From positions 1 through 38,754 of the forward strand of contig JAHJGQ010000081.1 in NCBI GenBank assembly GCA_018824365.1: DNA of 38,754 nt, written 5' to 3'. The notes beneath the pieces are model-generated. The model was not told the origin of the DNA and searched no databases. It saw only the letters and a program-made list of their open reading frames with translations. This stretch comes from Nanobdellota archaeon (GTDB lineage Archaea; Nanobdellota; Nanobdellia; Woesearchaeales; GW2011-AR9). A program made the position numbers and the translations under genes. Positions 1,793 to 30,260 of the stretch are shown piece by piece. Position 1 is the first letter of the stretch. Each line of letters begins with the position of its first letter.

Positions 1793-1806
1793 TGCACCGG
1801 CCGGGA
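1793..1806. repeat. 14-bp direct repeat TGCACCGGCCGGGA (tRNA 3' end), left copy
   Basis: Exact match to 2927-2940. Confidence 0.85.
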
Positions 1807-2123: not shown

Positions 2124-2178
2124 TCGCCTCTTTCTCTTGAAAACCCCGGGTTTTAGAATAATGCAAACTTGGAGGCGA
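2124..2178 (+). promoter_or_regulatory. hairpin enclosing the Shine-Dalgarno of the endonuclease gene
   Basis: TCGCCTC (2124-2130) pairs with GAGGCGA (2172-2178), which overlaps GGAGG upstream of ATG 2184; inner hairpin AAAACCC-C-GGGTTTT (2140-2154). Confidence 0.5.
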
Positions 2179-2183
2179 TAAGG

Positions 2184-2972
2184 ATGAATAAGAAAAGATT
2201 AAACAAAAGTGAACTTAAGCTTATTGGTACGTTAATTAAAAAAAATTACTCACTAAATGAAATTTCCAAAATATTAGGGAGGAGCAAAACTACAATATAC
2301 TATCATTTTAGAAAAATAAAAGGAAGATATGTTAAACCAGTAACTTTGATATCTGGTGATGAAGAATTAATTGGCGAGTTTATAGGCCTGTTTGCTGGTG
2401 ATGGCTCTTTCTACAAAATGCCTAATTACAAATACAATATTCGTTTACATTTTAATTCTACTGAAGCTAATTATGTTGATAATCTTATTCGAAATGTATT
2501 AATTAAGCTATTTGGCAAAAAACCAATGATGTTTAAACAAGAAAATAGGATAAATTTATGTTATTATTCTAAGAATATTTATGAGTTTGTTAAGGATTAT
2601 CTATGTTGGGATTTAAATGAACCTAAAACCTATTCTGTTAGGCTAAAGAAAGAGGATTATTCAAGTGCTTTTATGGTGGGTTTTATTAGAGGATCATTGG
2701 ATAGCGATGGGTATTTGTCTTCTAAAAAAGTCAGTTTTGCAACTGTTTCTCCAGGATTGAAAGAAAGTATTATAAGATGTTTAGATAGTTTAGATTTATC
2801 ATACAGTGTACGATTATACAAAGAAAAAAGAGAAAATCGTAGAGATATTTATCATGTTAATATTCTTAGAAAGGATTTCAACAAATTTTATCAAATTATT
2901 AAGCCAAGAAACATAAAAGGACTGAATGCACCGGCCGGGATTCGAATATCCGAACGTCCAGTCCAATTTTGA
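2184..2972 (+). CDS. LAGLIDADG homing endonuclease-like protein with N-terminal HTH
   Basis: Two LAGLIDADG-type motifs (LIGEFIGLFAGDGSF, FMVGFIRGSLDSDGYL), N-terminal HTH (LNEISKILGRSKTTIYYHF); ATG 2184 preceded by GGAGG; the ORF track starts at TTG 2169. Confidence 0.85.
   Translation: MNKKRLNKSELKLIGTLIKKNYSLNEISKILGRSKTTIYYHFRKIKGRYVKPVTLISGDEELIGEFIGLFAGDGSFYKMPNYKYNIRLHFNSTEANYVDNLIRNVLIKLFGKKPMMFKQENRINLCYYSKNIYEFVKDYLCWDLNEPKTYSVRLKKEDYSSAFMVGFIRGSLDSDGYLSSKKVSFATVSPGLKESIIRCLDSLDLSYSVRLYKEKRENRRDIYHVNILRKDFNKFYQIIKPRNIKGLNAPAGIRISERPVQF
2927..2940. repeat. 14-bp direct repeat TGCACCGGCCGGGA, right copy (3' end of tRNA-Gly)
   Basis: Exact match to 1793-1806. Confidence 0.85.
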
Positions 2973-3058
2973 CGTTTCCCGGATGACCGGCTTGGAAGGC
3001 CGGGATTCTTTACGGCGTGATAGGAAATTCTAACACGTAGCCATTAAACTACCGGTGC
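2927..3058 (-). tRNA. tRNA-Gly(UCC) with two introns: 3010-3038 (29 nt, D-loop) and 2947-2977 (31 nt, between T-stem and T-loop)
   Basis: Spliced 72 nt: GCACCGG TA GTTT AATGGCTA GAAT C CCGGC CTTCCAA GCCGG TCAT CCGGG TTCGAAT CCCGG CCGGTGC A. All four stems pair; anticodon TCC; both introns have a 4-bp helix flanked by 3-nt bulges. Confidence 0.9.
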
Positions 3059-16772: not shown

Positions 16773-18221
16773 ATGTCTCAACTTGATAAAGGTATTTGTC
16801 TAAGATTTTATAAACGTAGAGATGTTCAGGATGCTATAATAGTTCATGCACGGCAGAAAGAAATTGGGGTGAGATATGGGACTGATTTTGGCAAACGTCC
16901 AGATATCCTTTCTTATCCTCGTGAAATTTTGGAATTAGCTAAACAAGGGGTCACCTCATTTCATTGCAGTGAAGAACTATGGGAAAATCCTCTCTCTTTA
17001 GATAGTAATTTTAACCGGAAAGAACTGGATGAGCTGCGGATAGGATGGGACCTTGTATTAGATATAGATTGTAAATTTATTGATTATAGCAAAATAAGTG
17101 CAGATCTGATTGTCAGATTTCTTAAATATTGTGGAGTAAAAGATATATCGGTAAAGTTTAGTGGGAACAAAGGATTCCATATCGGCGTGCCTTTTGAAGC
17201 ATTTCCTAAAAAAGTAGGTGACTCACTCGTTAAAGATCTTTTTCCTGAGGCAGCTAAGAAAATAGCTTTTTATATTAAAGAGAACATCAAAGAAGAATTA
17301 GAAAAAAGAGTTCTTGAATTTGAGAAAAACGATTTTAATAAAGTAAAAGAAAAAGTTGAACTGCCTCAAGAAGAGATTATCCGTTATGAAGAAAATGAGT
17401 TTGGAGATAAGATCCCTAAATTAAGTGTTGATAAGTTTCTAGAAATAGATACTGTATTAATTTCTTCAAGACATTTGTATCGGGCACCTTACAGCCTGCA
17501 TGAAAAGTCCGGCTTAATAAGTCTACCAATCGATCCAGAAAAAGTGATGGGATTTGAAAAAAACATGGCCAGACCGGAAGATCTCATCATACCCAATTTT
17601 ATTTTTTTAGACAGGGATGTTAATGATGAGAGCGGCAGAAGATTGTTGATACAGGCTTTGGATTTTGAAGTTAAAGCCGAAGAAAAAGATTATAAGATCC
17701 ATCTTCATGGTAATGCTCAGGAATATGAAGAACTGGTGATTGAAAGCCCAATAAAAGAAGATTTCTTTCCCCCTTGCATTTTGAAGATCCTTGAAGGCGT
17801 AGAAGATGGTAAGAAAAGAGCAGTCTTTATCTTGATGAATTTCTTAGGTAAGATTGGTTGGAACAAGAATGAAATTGAGCTGTATATCCTTAAATGGAAC
17901 AAAGAAAAGAATAAAGAACCATTGCGTGAAAATTATGTCAAAGGGCAGTTAAGATATTTCAAGCCGGGAGATAAGCTGTCTCCTAATTGTGATAATGAAG
18001 CTTATTACAAAGATTTGGGAAATTGTTTACCAAATAAATTGTGTGGAAAGATCAAGAATCCCGTCAACTATACAATCTTAAGATGGAAGAGTCATTTAAG
18101 AGATAGAGAAGAGGAAAATGCAGGGAAAAAGATAGAAAAAAAAAGAGAGAAGAAAGATAAAAAAGAAGAAAAAGTCAAATTGTCTTCTGGTCAAGATCTT
18201 AACCCTCAAAATCCTAGCTAA
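16773..18221 (+). CDS. priS: single-chain DNA primase: PriS catalytic domain fused to PriL C-terminal Fe-S domain
   Basis: PriS features (LVLDIDCK, VKFSGNKGFHIGVP, ISSRHLYRAPYSLHEKSGLISLP) followed by PriL-CTD 'PPCILKILEG...IGW...NCDNEAYYKDLGNCLPNKLCGKIKNPVNYT' with four Cys. Confidence 0.9.
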   Translation: MSQLDKGICLRFYKRRDVQDAIIVHARQKEIGVRYGTDFGKRPDILSYPREILELAKQGVTSFHCSEELWENPLSLDSNFNRKELDELRIGWDLVLDIDCKFIDYSKISADLIVRFLKYCGVKDISVKFSGNKGFHIGVPFEAFPKKVGDSLVKDLFPEAAKKIAFYIKENIKEELEKRVLEFEKNDFNKVKEKVELPQEEIIRYEENEFGDKIPKLSVDKFLEIDTVLISSRHLYRAPYSLHEKSGLISLPIDPEKVMGFEKNMARPEDLIIPNFIFLDRDVNDESGRRLLIQALDFEVKAEEKDYKIHLHGNAQEYEELVIESPIKEDFFPPCILKILEGVEDGKKRAVFILMNFLGKIGWNKNEIELYILKWNKEKNKEPLRENYVKGQLRYFKPGDKLSPNCDNEAYYKDLGNCLPNKLCGKIKNPVNYTILRWKSHLRDREEENAGKKIEKKREKKDKKEEKVKLSSGQDLNPQNPS

Positions 18222-24412: not shown

Positions 24413-26902
24413 GTGGATAATACAAATATTTTAGACATTCCTACAGAACAACTAACTCCGGGAATGAGACAGTATCAGGAAGCCAAACGTAACAATCCAG
24501 ACTGCCTGATAATGCTTAGGATGGGAGATTTCTATGAGATGTTCTATGAAGATGCAGTTACTTCTGCAAAAGAATTAGAAATAACTTTAACAGCAAGAGG
24601 CAAGGGAGATAAAAGAGCACCATTGGCTGGGATACCATATCATGCTTTAGAATCTTACTTAGCAAGATTAATCAAGAAAGGTTTCAAGGTTGCTATCATT
24701 GAACAACTTGAAGATCCAAAGAATGCCAAAGGTTTAGTAAAAAGAGGTTTGGTAAGAATCGTCACTCCTGGAACGGTAATTGAATCTTCAATGCTTAATG
24801 AGAAAGAAAATAATTATATCATGTCTTTAACTTCTTTTGCAGATGAATACGCAGCGGCTTTTTGCGATCTATCTACTGGAGAATTTTTTACTGCAAAAAT
24901 TAACTCTTTCCCACAATTAATCAACGAGATTATCCGTCTTAACCCTTCTGAATGCATTATTCCTGAAAGTCTTAAAGTAAATCATGAATTGATTGAAAAG
25001 ATAAAATCCAATGGTGTTTTTGTCAACTCTTTAGAAGATTATTATTTCAGAAAAGAAAATGCCAGAAAAATTTTACTTAACCACTTCAATCTTGCTTCTT
25101 TAGATCCATTTGGTTTAGAAGATAAAAAGAGTAATTTAGTGGTATCAGGAGCATTGTTAAAATATCTTTTAGAAACACAAAAAAATTCTTTATCACATAT
25201 AAAAAAGATTAGTCTGAGAAGCAATCAGAACAAAATGCTTCTTGATTCCAGTACCCTAAGAAATCTTGAATTAACAAAGAATATCAAAGATGGAACTACG
25301 CGTGGTTCACTTCTTTCAGTATTTGACAAGACAGTTACAGCTATGGGTGCCAGACTATTAAAGAAATGGATTAAAGAACCTTTACTAAAAAAAGAGATTA
25401 TCAAAAGAAGATTGAATGCAGTTGAAGCATTAGGTAAGAATATTATCGTCAGGGAAGAAATCATCAATTTACTTAATGAAGTCTATGATTTAGAAAGATT
25501 GATCAGCCGGGTTAATTATGGGAACGCAAGTCCTCGAGATTTATCAGCTTTAAAAAAATCGTTAGAAAATATTCCTCCAATTAAAGAAAAATTAAATCTT
25601 TTAGAAAGCGATCTGCTTCTGAACATTTCAAAAATACACAGCTTAAAAGAAATCGCTTCTTTAATCAACAAAGCGATCAAAGAAGATTCTCCTTTAACAA
25701 TAAGAGAAGGCAATATCATTAAAGCAGATTACAACGAAGAACTTGATCAATTAAGAGACATTAAACTTAATAGTAAAAAATACTTAAAACAGATAGAAGA
25801 AAGAGAAAAAGAAAAGACTGGAATACAGACATTAAGAATTGGTTTCACGAGGGTTTTTGGGTATTTTATTGAAGTGACAAAAAAAAATCTTCATCTTGTT
25901 CCAGAAACTTATATCCGGAAACAGACTACTGCAAATTCTGAAAGGTATATAACTGAAGAGTTGAAGATTGAAGAAGAAAAGATCTTAGGGGCAGAAGAAA
26001 AAATTAATGAATTAGAATATAACTTATTTCAGGATATATTGAAAAAGGTTTCAGAACAAACTCTTGAAGTACAGGAAACTGCCAGTAAACTTTCAGTTCT
26101 TGATGTTTTATGCTCTTTAGCAAAAGTTGCTATGGAAAATAATTATTCAAAGCCAGAATTTGTAGATCAGAAAGTTATCCAGATCAAAAACGGTCGTCAT
26201 CCAGTTGTAGAAATTATAGAAAAAAGTTTCATTGCCAATGATATTTTTCTTAACGAAAAGGAAATGATGATCATTACCGGTCCGAACATGGCAGGGAAAA
26301 GTACAGTGATGAGACAGACAGCTTTGATAGTTCTTATGGCACAAATGGGCAGTTTTGTTCCTGCTGAACAATGTGTGTTGGGAATTGTTGACAGAATCTT
26401 TACCAGGGTAGGAGCGTACGATGATTTAAGTTCAGGACAGTCAACTTTTATGGTTGAGATGAATGAAACCGCTTCAATTTTGAATAATGCTACTAAAGAT
26501 AGTTTGATAATATTGGATGAGATAGGCAGGGGCACTTCCACGTTTGATGGAGTGAGTATCGCCTGGAGTGTTGCTGAACATATCTATAATAAAGTGCAGG
26601 CAAAAACATTGTTTGCTACACATTATCATGTGATGAACAAGTTAGCAGAAAAATTTAGCAAGATTAAAAATTATAACATTGCTGCTAAAGAGGTAAAAGG
26701 AGAAGTTGTTTTTCTTCATAAATTATTAGAAGGTGGAACCGATCAAAGTTATGGGATACATGTAGCCAAGTTAGCCGGCCTTCCTGACGAAGTGATCGGA
26801 CGTGCTAAAGAAATTCAGGAAATCTTGGAAAAAGATGATGAGATGGTCAGGAAGATCAAAGCAAAAAAGTTGCAAGAGCAGATGTGTTTAGATAAGTTCT
26901 AA
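24413..26902 (+). CDS. mutS: DNA mismatch repair protein MutS (bacterial MutS1 type)
   Basis: 'MRQYQEAKRNNPDCLIMLRMGDFYEMF', Walker A 'TGPNMAGKST', 'DEIGRGTSTFDG'. Confidence 0.97.
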   Translation: MDNTNILDIPTEQLTPGMRQYQEAKRNNPDCLIMLRMGDFYEMFYEDAVTSAKELEITLTARGKGDKRAPLAGIPYHALESYLARLIKKGFKVAIIEQLEDPKNAKGLVKRGLVRIVTPGTVIESSMLNEKENNYIMSLTSFADEYAAAFCDLSTGEFFTAKINSFPQLINEIIRLNPSECIIPESLKVNHELIEKIKSNGVFVNSLEDYYFRKENARKILLNHFNLASLDPFGLEDKKSNLVVSGALLKYLLETQKNSLSHIKKISLRSNQNKMLLDSSTLRNLELTKNIKDGTTRGSLLSVFDKTVTAMGARLLKKWIKEPLLKKEIIKRRLNAVEALGKNIIVREEIINLLNEVYDLERLISRVNYGNASPRDLSALKKSLENIPPIKEKLNLLESDLLLNISKIHSLKEIASLINKAIKEDSPLTIREGNIIKADYNEELDQLRDIKLNSKKYLKQIEEREKEKTGIQTLRIGFTRVFGYFIEVTKKNLHLVPETYIRKQTTANSERYITEELKIEEEKILGAEEKINELEYNLFQDILKKVSEQTLEVQETASKLSVLDVLCSLAKVAMENNYSKPEFVDQKVIQIKNGRHPVVEIIEKSFIANDIFLNEKEMMIITGPNMAGKSTVMRQTALIVLMAQMGSFVPAEQCVLGIVDRIFTRVGAYDDLSSGQSTFMVEMNETASILNNATKDSLIILDEIGRGTSTFDGVSIAWSVAEHIYNKVQAKTLFATHYHVMNKLAEKFSKIKNYNIAAKEVKGEVVFLHKLLEGGTDQSYGIHVAKLAGLPDEVIGRAKEIQEILEKDDEMVRKIKAKKLQEQMCLDKF

Positions 26903-28370: not shown

Positions 28371-30260
28371 ATGTCAAAAATAACTGTTCTTGATGAGGAT
28401 CTTATTAATAAGATTGCTGCTGGTGAGGTGATTGAAAGGCCAGCTTCGGTAGTTAAAGAATTGATAGAAAATTCTTTGGATGCAAACTCAACTAAAATTA
28501 TAATAGAAATAAAAGATTCAGGTAAGAAATTAATCAAAATATCTGATAACGGAGAAGGGATGAGTGAAGATGATGCTAAAAAGTCTATACTAAGGCATGC
28601 TACCAGCAAGATCAGTTCATTAGATGATCTGTTTTCCATTAAAACTTTAGGTTTTAGGGGAGAAGCATTAGCCAGTATTGCTGCGGTTTCTCAGCTTTCT
28701 ATAACAACAAAACAGAAGGAAGGTGTTGGCGGTTTCAATCTTGTTGTGGAAGGAGGAAATGTTGTCAGTTCAGGGATTATAGCTGCAGAACAGGGAACAA
28801 CAATTGAAGTGCATAATCTATTCTTCAACACACCGGTAAGAAAAAAATTCTTGAAGACAGATACCGTTGAGCTGAGACATATTATTGATGTTGTTACACA
28901 GTATGCACTTGCTAATCCAGAAGTTTATTTTAAGCTTATTCACGAAAACCATTCTCTGATCAATTCACCGGCAGTTGAAGATCCGCGTAATAATATTGCT
29001 GCAATATATGGGATAACGATAGCTAAAGATTTGTTAGAAGTAAGATATGGTGGTAATAAAAAATTTAATGAACGGGACAATGAACTAGATAAAGAGCAAG
29101 ATCATGAGCAAGATTATGAATCGAGCAGTATAAATATAACCGGTTTTGTTGCCAAACCCCATCAAGCTAGGAATGATAAAAACCAGCAGGTTATTTTTGT
29201 CAATGGCAGGTGGGTAAAGAATAATGATATCACTAAAGCAGTATATGATGCTTTCCATTCTCTTCTTTTCGTCAATAAACATCCAATATTTGTCTTGAAT
29301 CTTGAATTAGATCCGGAGAAGATTGATGTCAATGTCCATCCTCAAAAGTATGAGATCAAGATTGAACAGAAAGAAAAAGTTATCAAAGCAGTTTTTACTG
29401 CAGTAAAAGAAACTTTAGAGAATAATAATCTTATTCCGATTGTTGACTTTGATTTTGAACAGCAATTAACTTTTGGCACACCTAAGAAAAAAGATGTTCC
29501 TAAACCGGAAGTAAAATATCGGTTTGAAAAAAGTCAACAATCCGTTTTTGCAGTTAGAGAAGAAAGTGAACAGTTAAAGAAAGAAGATGGGCAGTTAAAG
29601 GATGATGAACAATTTCATGAGAAATCATTTGTGTCAGAACAATCTCAAACTGAGGAAATTCCTGAGAGCGTAAAACTTCCGCCAATGAAGATACTTGGCC
29701 AGATACATAAAACTTTTTTCGTTGCAGAAACTCCCGGCGGAGTTTTATTTATTGATCAGCATGTTGTACAAGAAAGAGTTCTCTATGAAAAATTTATGAA
29801 TGAATTGATGGGTAAGAAGGTAAGTACACAGACACTTCTGCAAGAAGAAATCATCGATTTTACTCCAGTGCAGAGAATTGTTGTTGAAGAGAATAAAGAA
29901 ATTTTAGAAAAACTTGGATTTAAGCTGGAACATTTTGGAGAGAACACTTTTGTTCTTAAAACAATCCCTTCACTTTTTGGTCGCTTGCAATCAACTGAAT
30001 TGATTCATGAAATGATTGATTATTTTGATAATGGTAAAAATGAAAGAAAAACTAGGCTTGAAGAGATTCAAGAAGAGATTATTACCCGGATGGCCTGTAG
30101 AGCTTCTGTTAAAGCTGGGGACGATATGACTCTTCCGGAGATTCAGAAACTTTTAGCAGAACTAAGTGATTGTAAGCTTCCTTATACCTGTCCTCATGGA
30201 AGGGCAATCTTGATTAAAGTTGATGTAAATGAACTTGAAAAGAAGTTTAAGCGGAAATAA
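28371..30260 (+). CDS. mutL: DNA mismatch repair protein MutL
   Basis: GHKL motifs 'IAAGEVIERPASVVKELIENSLDA', 'DNGEGM', 'RHATSKI', 'GFRGEALASI'; C-terminal DQHVVQERVLYE and CPHGRA. Confidence 0.96.
   Translation: MSKITVLDEDLINKIAAGEVIERPASVVKELIENSLDANSTKIIIEIKDSGKKLIKISDNGEGMSEDDAKKSILRHATSKISSLDDLFSIKTLGFRGEALASIAAVSQLSITTKQKEGVGGFNLVVEGGNVVSSGIIAAEQGTTIEVHNLFFNTPVRKKFLKTDTVELRHIIDVVTQYALANPEVYFKLIHENHSLINSPAVEDPRNNIAAIYGITIAKDLLEVRYGGNKKFNERDNELDKEQDHEQDYESSSINITGFVAKPHQARNDKNQQVIFVNGRWVKNNDITKAVYDAFHSLLFVNKHPIFVLNLELDPEKIDVNVHPQKYEIKIEQKEKVIKAVFTAVKETLENNNLIPIVDFDFEQQLTFGTPKKKDVPKPEVKYRFEKSQQSVFAVREESEQLKKEDGQLKDDEQFHEKSFVSEQSQTEEIPESVKLPPMKILGQIHKTFFVAETPGGVLFIDQHVVQERVLYEKFMNELMGKKVSTQTLLQEEIIDFTPVQRIVVEENKEILEKLGFKLEHFGENTFVLKTIPSLFGRLQSTELIHEMIDYFDNGKNERKTRLEEIQEEIITRMACRASVKAGDDMTLPEIQKLLAELSDCKLPYTCPHGRAILIKVDVNELEKKFKRK

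Follow-up and report, generated by a model that had tools for sequence, protein, structure and literature searches.

A doubly interrupted tRNA-Gly(UCC) gene meets a LAGLIDADG gene

The DNA analyzed here (the window) is a stretch of 38,754 nucleotides from a Woesearchaeales-type DPANN genome of 1.23 Mb in 122 contigs, scored 96% complete. Near its start, a tRNA-Gly(UCC) gene on the minus strand converges with a LAGLIDADG endonuclease-like open reading frame (ORF), and part of the tRNA 3' end is repeated on the far side of that ORF. The features of the locus are as follows.

2927-3058, minus strand: tRNA-Gly(UCC) gene with two bulge-helix-bulge (BHB) introns; 132 nt, 72 nt when mature including A73; supported by intron-free homologs
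3039-3058, minus strand: exon 1, tRNA positions 1-20a
3010-3038, minus strand: intron 1, 29 nt, at 20a/21; strict 3-4-3 BHB with central helix ATGG/CCGT
2978-3009, minus strand: exon 2, positions 21-53, anticodon UCC
2947-2977, minus strand: intron 2, 31 nt, at 53/54; strict 3-4-3 BHB (TCCG/CGGA), supported by covariation
2927-2946, minus strand: exon 3, positions 54-73, overlapped by the C-terminal codons of the LAGLIDADG ORF
2169-2972, plus strand: LAGLIDADG endonuclease-like ORF, 267 amino acids from TTG 2169, with an in-frame ATG at 2184; supported by Pfam, alignment, and a structure model
1793-1806, minus strand: 14-nt copy of the tRNA 3' end, reading TGCACCGGCCGGGA on the plus strand and identical to 2927-2940, beyond the LAGLIDADG gene

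A first-pass annotation of the sequence had proposed a tRNA-Gly(UCC) with introns of 29 and 31 nt, both outside position 37/38, without giving its strand. Splicing at these positions does leave a 72-nt tRNA, and the introns lie at 20a/21 and 53/54. A template-free finder written for this analysis, which removes only BHB introns and scores the resulting cloverleaf, returned exactly these two introns with a score of 34.6 (highest score on shuffled loci from the same genome, 28.6). Both introns have the 3-nt bulge, 4-bp helix, and 3-nt bulge of archaeal BHB tRNA introns, with four of four central pairs once the single G-U noted earlier is counted. The expectation that simple scanners would overlook the gene was also borne out, since neither ARAGORN nor Rfam gave a match in the window. 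Precursor RNA folding was more stable than that of shuffled sequences (z = −2.7). An intact, intron-free tRNA-Gly(UCC) elsewhere in the genome had been named as evidence that would count against the proposal, and none was found: BLAST of the 132-nt gene against its own genome returned only itself, and RF00005 at E ≤ 10 matched 14 places, none of them another Gly(UCC). By sequence, the gene looks functional, and an archaeal splicing endonuclease would remove both introns. The first-pass annotation mentioned neither the adjoining LAGLIDADG gene nor the second copy of the tRNA end; we judge these two features to be the more important part of the locus.

Related genomes contain empty sites and covarying introns

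Both splice junctions are confirmed by intron-free homologs in five related genomes (L022, L025, L026, L027, and L028), which match the spliced product across both junctions and show that removal of both introns gives a standard tRNA. All five belong to the same family as the host; four of them (G018, G004, G010, and G037) carry an uninterrupted 72-nt Gly(UCC) gene, and the fifth (G007) carries one of 71 nt with one base deleted. In the nearest relative, G033 (L017), the gene is interrupted at the same two positions by introns of different sequence, and in other relatives introns lie at 36/37 or 37/38 and at 53/54 or 59/60, in varying combinations. Across ten distinct 53/54 junctions (nine Gly, one Trp), 98.9% of cells in the helices pair, with 15 double changes compared with 4.4 in shuffles (0 of 500 shuffles reached 15). 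The sequence of the 53/54 intron is alike across families (GGACTGG.CGTTC..A).

Introns at other positions show patterns of their own. The 59/60 introns of the host's tRNA-Thr(GGU) (L159:463-617) and tRNA-Ile(GAU) (L175:161-330) are identical at 45 of 46 positions, pointing to recent intron copying between tRNA genes. Long conserved stretches are likewise common to the 74- to 76-nt 59/60 introns of the host's own Ile(UAU) (L178) and of Gly(UCC) in G048 (L252). In four genera, Gly(UCC) 59/60 introns (L021, L031, L036, and L038) have a conserved interior, GGTTTAGCTTAGAAAATCCAGCTGG...AAAACCTGTC, unlike the 37/38 introns, which have diverged; this 59/60 intron is possibly structured or functional, and Rfam gave no convincing match on the loci that carry it. 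An apparent BHB intron at 10/11 was read by eye in tRNA-Gln(UUG) (L183:380-760, minus strand).

The host genome has heavily fragmented tRNA genes and a single splicing endonuclease gene

Only eight matches to RF00005 at E ≤ 0.001 were found in the host genome (3 to 30 in relatives of its family). We recovered 21 tRNA genes, with about 39 introns in total (approximately 1.9 per gene), in a partial census that drew on box-A patterns and on stretches of sequence. On their own, the two short box-A patterns matched no more often than their reversed controls did, and a longer pattern gave 19 matches versus 6 in its reversed control. The BHB-removing finder called 37 of the introns (20 strict BHB, 17 with one mismatch), and two more, in Ile(GAU) and Pro(GGG), were read by eye. 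The tRNA genes absent from the census are probably interrupted as well, because RF00005 would have caught intron-free ones. Published figures are a mean of 0.84 introns per tRNA gene for Thermoproteales and 71 introns in 46 tRNA genes for Pyrobaculum calidifontis (PMC8450103). The tRNA counts used for judging such genomes are badly underestimated, as the eight RF00005 matches in a genome scored 96% complete illustrate. Elsewhere in the window, a single plus-strand ORF (16773-18221) matches both the small and the large DNA primase subunits, a fused primase, and full-length mutS and mutL genes (24413-26902 and 28371-30260, plus strand) lie near each other in this small DPANN genome.

Broad-specificity archaeal splicing endonucleases carry a 15- to 18-residue CSL or an 11-residue ASL near the active site, or a second subunit type. 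In the host genome, as in nearly all relatives, only one gene matching PF01974 was found (EndA; L009:1474-2217, minus strand). It encodes an alpha-type protein of 247 amino acids whose best PDB match is the Methanocaldococcus jannaschii EndA. Its relatives are labeled Candidatus Woesearchaeota/Nanoarchaeota, which places the host among DPANN archaea and not in the Thermoproteales-type crenarchaeal setting implied by the first-pass annotation. No insert of CSL length was seen in the alignment. At residues ~101-113, where ARMAN-2 has its ASL, there is a conserved FG....GK loop in which one basic residue (K/R) hardly varies, and this loop could bear on substrate range. According to reviews, alpha4 enzymes cut canonical introns only (PMC4033280). 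Heavy tRNA fragmentation alongside a single alpha-type EndA, as far as found, strains the published link of such introns to CSL- or ASL-bearing enzymes.

The flanking gene encodes a LAGLIDADG protein and is bordered by tRNA-end copies

The ORF that meets the tRNA gene has an N-terminal HTH_38 domain followed by LAGLIDADG_3 (Pfam), two G-D-G motifs, and invariant acidic residues D78 and D180 in the alignment. The structure model was confident (pLDDT 86.6), and its closest fold in the PDB was I-DmoI, a two-motif LAGLIDADG enzyme of an archaeal BHB intron that is intron-encoded in rRNA. The present protein shares the two motifs, is about 20% identical to I-DmoI, and differs from it in having the HTH_38 domain. 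By motifs, acidic residues, and fold, it is a putative LAGLIDADG homing endonuclease. The ORF overlaps the tRNA 3' end by about 46 nt: its last codons lie on the strand opposite the tRNA 3' exon, and it reaches its stop codon inside the 53/54 intron. An intron-encoded (I-type) endonuclease was rejected: the intron is just 31 nt long, and the gene lies outside it, overlapping only by its C terminus.

Homologs in G046, G055, and G014 adjoin the same end of a Gly(UCC) tRNA, the G014 copy with three in-frame stops, and G033 and G011 keep the 53/54 intron with no adjoining LAGLIDADG gene. The identity of the gene to copies in other families (56 to 61%) is no lower than within its own family (48 to 60%), unlike EndA, whose identity drops from 71 to 78% within the family to 65 to 66% in other families. 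Horizontal movement of the gene is only suggested by these values, and its tree is too unresolved to prove transfer.

Copies of the tRNA end also occur beyond the homologous genes: 17 nt in G046, and 21 nt with two mismatches in G055, where the copy extends into a T arm that has no intron. At 25 loci we searched the region past the distal end of the nuclease gene for a copy of the tRNA end that adjoins the gene. Seven of 25 had such a copy at a score of at least 11.5, versus 1 of 25 and 0 of 25 in two controls, and in six of these seven the copy starts precisely at the tRNA boundary. Where the gene lies on the 5' side (L277 and L289), the copies are of the tRNA 5' end; in the window, a 5'-exon copy of the tRNA was sought and not found. 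Such copies would be expected after insertions that interrupt a tRNA gene and restore the end it loses. One further copy stands apart from any nuclease gene: 18 nt of the tRNA-Thr(CGU) 5' end (L153:516-533 and 608-625) recur 92 bp upstream of that gene with no endonuclease gene between, perhaps the footprint of a lost 5'-side unit.

The LAGLIDADG family recurs at tRNA ends, and the 53/54 intron is associated with a 3'-side gene

A profile built from 16 members of the LAGLIDADG family matched 221 of the 295 genomes of the order. These order-level matches, considered with a view to bias from the tRNA-encoded C terminus, cover the LAGLIDADG core (about positions 3-224 of 228). We examined 50 family loci (the 30 best and 20 weaker ones), collected by HMM without regard to tRNAs, and scored adjacency as a tRNA within −130 to +60 bp of the 3' end of the gene, using a finder blind to the gene. 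A tRNA was present at 23 of the 30 best and 13 of the 20 weaker loci (36 of 50), whereas the same finder placed none at 410 gene 3' ends from 80 EndA loci, which rules out chance adjacency of LAGLIDADG genes and tRNAs. By eye, several other family loci also extend into tRNA-Leu or tRNA-Thr sequence. The gene lies on either side of its tRNA, and the tRNAs concerned include Gly, Trp, Arg, Ile, Asn, Met, Phe, Lys, Gln, Ala, and Ser.

The 53/54 intron was associated with the side on which the gene lies. For Gly(UCC), it was present in 8 of 8 loci with a 3'-side gene and in 2 of 20 without it (Fisher P = 1.4 × 10^−5); over all tRNAs, 12 of 24 loci with a 3'-side gene had a 53/54 intron, compared with 1 of 22 with a 5'-side gene (P = 8 × 10^−4). 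In both comparisons the loci are related and hence less independent than the Fisher tests assume. At Ile, Asn, Arg(UCU), and Met loci, a 3'-side gene occurs without a 53/54 intron. D-arm introns showed no bias with respect to gene side over all tRNAs. Three Gly(UCC) loci with a 5'-side gene do carry a D-arm intron; the idea that D-loop introns are 5'-side counterparts was nevertheless rejected on this lack of bias and on the Gly(UCC) locus L323, which has its gene on the 5' side, only a 37/38 intron, and no D-arm intron.

A homing unit is the preferred explanation of the locus

Taken together, these results suggest that the 53/54 intron, the present tRNA 3' exon, and the flanking LAGLIDADG gene probably form, or formed, one homing unit. 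We favor this reading because (i) a LAGLIDADG family recurrently flanks tRNAs; (ii) the 53/54 intron is tied to a 3'-side gene; (iii) tRNA-end copies lie beyond the nuclease gene more often than in controls; (iv) degenerate states exist, namely, a gene with stops and introns without a gene; (v) the protein models as the endonuclease of an archaeal rRNA BHB intron; and (vi) gene identity across families does not fall as that of EndA does. Counted against it are the Ile, Asn, Arg(UCU), Met, and L323 loci, the detection of tRNA-end repeats at a minority of loci, and the gene tree. The 20a/21 intron is left unexplained by the proposed unit, given that D-arm introns show no gene-side bias.

Cleavage specificity, homing, and splicing at the Gly(UCC) locus are steps that we infer as follows. 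The unit would span about 1.2 kb (about 1807-2977), with the nuclease beside the intron and not in it. The endonuclease would cut intron-less tRNA-Gly(UCC) alleles, and with repair from the donor the intron, a newly copied tRNA 3' end, and the endonuclease gene would be introduced together. The old tRNA 3' end would be pushed to the far side, leaving the 14-nt piece at 1793-1806, which under the homing model would be that displaced end. By splitting the cut site in DNA, the intron would protect the donor, and splicing would keep the tRNA functional, so that the target would be disrupted in DNA and not in RNA. Homing is the simplest account of the locus.

Three other accounts were weighed. A free-standing homing endonuclease may spread by targeting tRNA genes; the 53/54 intron would then be no cargo but an independent insertion, or would have spread as resistance to cleavage. 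Many tRNA-flanking members do lack an intron in the adjoining tRNA half, and 20-nt tRNA-end copies occur at the Ile (L269) and Arg(UCU) (L282) loci with no called 53/54 intron. However, the intron is present at every Gly(UCC) locus with a 3'-side gene, and its sequence is alike across families as if travelling or descending with the gene, which leaves this account rather unlikely.

We regard as improbable an old, vertically inherited arrangement in which an ancestor had the intron and adjacent gene, most lineages lost one or both, and there is no present mobility. It would fit the occurrence of the same locus with the same ZPR1 neighbor in G033 and the high divergence of the gene (about 60%), by which no recent transfer is seen. 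It sits poorly with family members beside many different tRNAs on either side, with the coexistence of intact and decaying gene copies, and with displaced tRNA ends, which imply insertion events. Integration by tyrosine integrases, in turn, typically leaves a tRNA 3' end directly repeated, and the locus might be the relic of such an element, with the repeat as att site and the LAGLIDADG gene as passenger. The repeats, however, leave room for the LAGLIDADG gene alone (840 to 1,134 bp at three loci); no integrase was seen, the LAGLIDADG ORF being the sole ORF between the repeats within the window; and insertions on the 5' side with 5'-end copies exist too (L277 and L289). We therefore give an integrase relic very little credence.

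Comparison with known systems and implications

Multi-intron tRNAs are known from Thermoproteales and other archaea, where BHB introns occur at 20/21, 53/54, 59/60, and other positions, up to three per tRNA, and similar introns occur in different tRNAs (PMC4090602, PMC8450103). The introns described here lie at positions already listed for those systems, from which the present case differs in its DPANN host, the single alpha-type EndA gene found, and the flanking endonuclease gene. The papers found in our literature search name Crenarchaeota, Thaumarchaeota, and Nanoarchaeota, and none of them deals with tRNA introns of Woesearchaeota. Nor was a description of tRNA-flanking homing genes in archaea found in the literature searched, a scope outside which most subscription journals fell.

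The closest precedents for the proposed homing unit are I-PogI and the collaborative homing of phages. I-PogI, from Pyrobaculum oguniense rRNA, co-converts a neighboring ORF-less intron (PMC4496867 and its reference 38). Both are archaeal LAGLIDADG enzymes that mobilize, or here would mobilize, an adjoining short hairpin BHB intron; I-PogI is encoded within another rRNA intron, whereas the present gene lies beside a tRNA and outside any intron. In phage collaborative (trans) homing with free-standing endonucleases (PMC3984707), the endonuclease gene likewise lies outside the intron whose insertion site is the proposed target. Those introns, however, are group I introns in phage protein genes rather than protein-spliced tRNA introns, and here the tRNA end would be regenerated and the old end displaced.

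The spread of noncanonical tRNA introns in archaea has been described as unknown (PMC4090602, PMC4496867). In a judgment that we consider evenly balanced, Woesearchaeales-type archaea may harbor a large family of LAGLIDADG homing elements directed at tRNA genes. These elements would insert at either end of many tRNAs, regenerate the interrupted end, and sometimes carry a short 53/54 BHB intron as self-protection, such that tRNA introns would be spread by homing from outside the intron. A nuclease gene tied to one intron position, together with displaced tRNA ends, offers a concrete and testable mechanism for intron spread.
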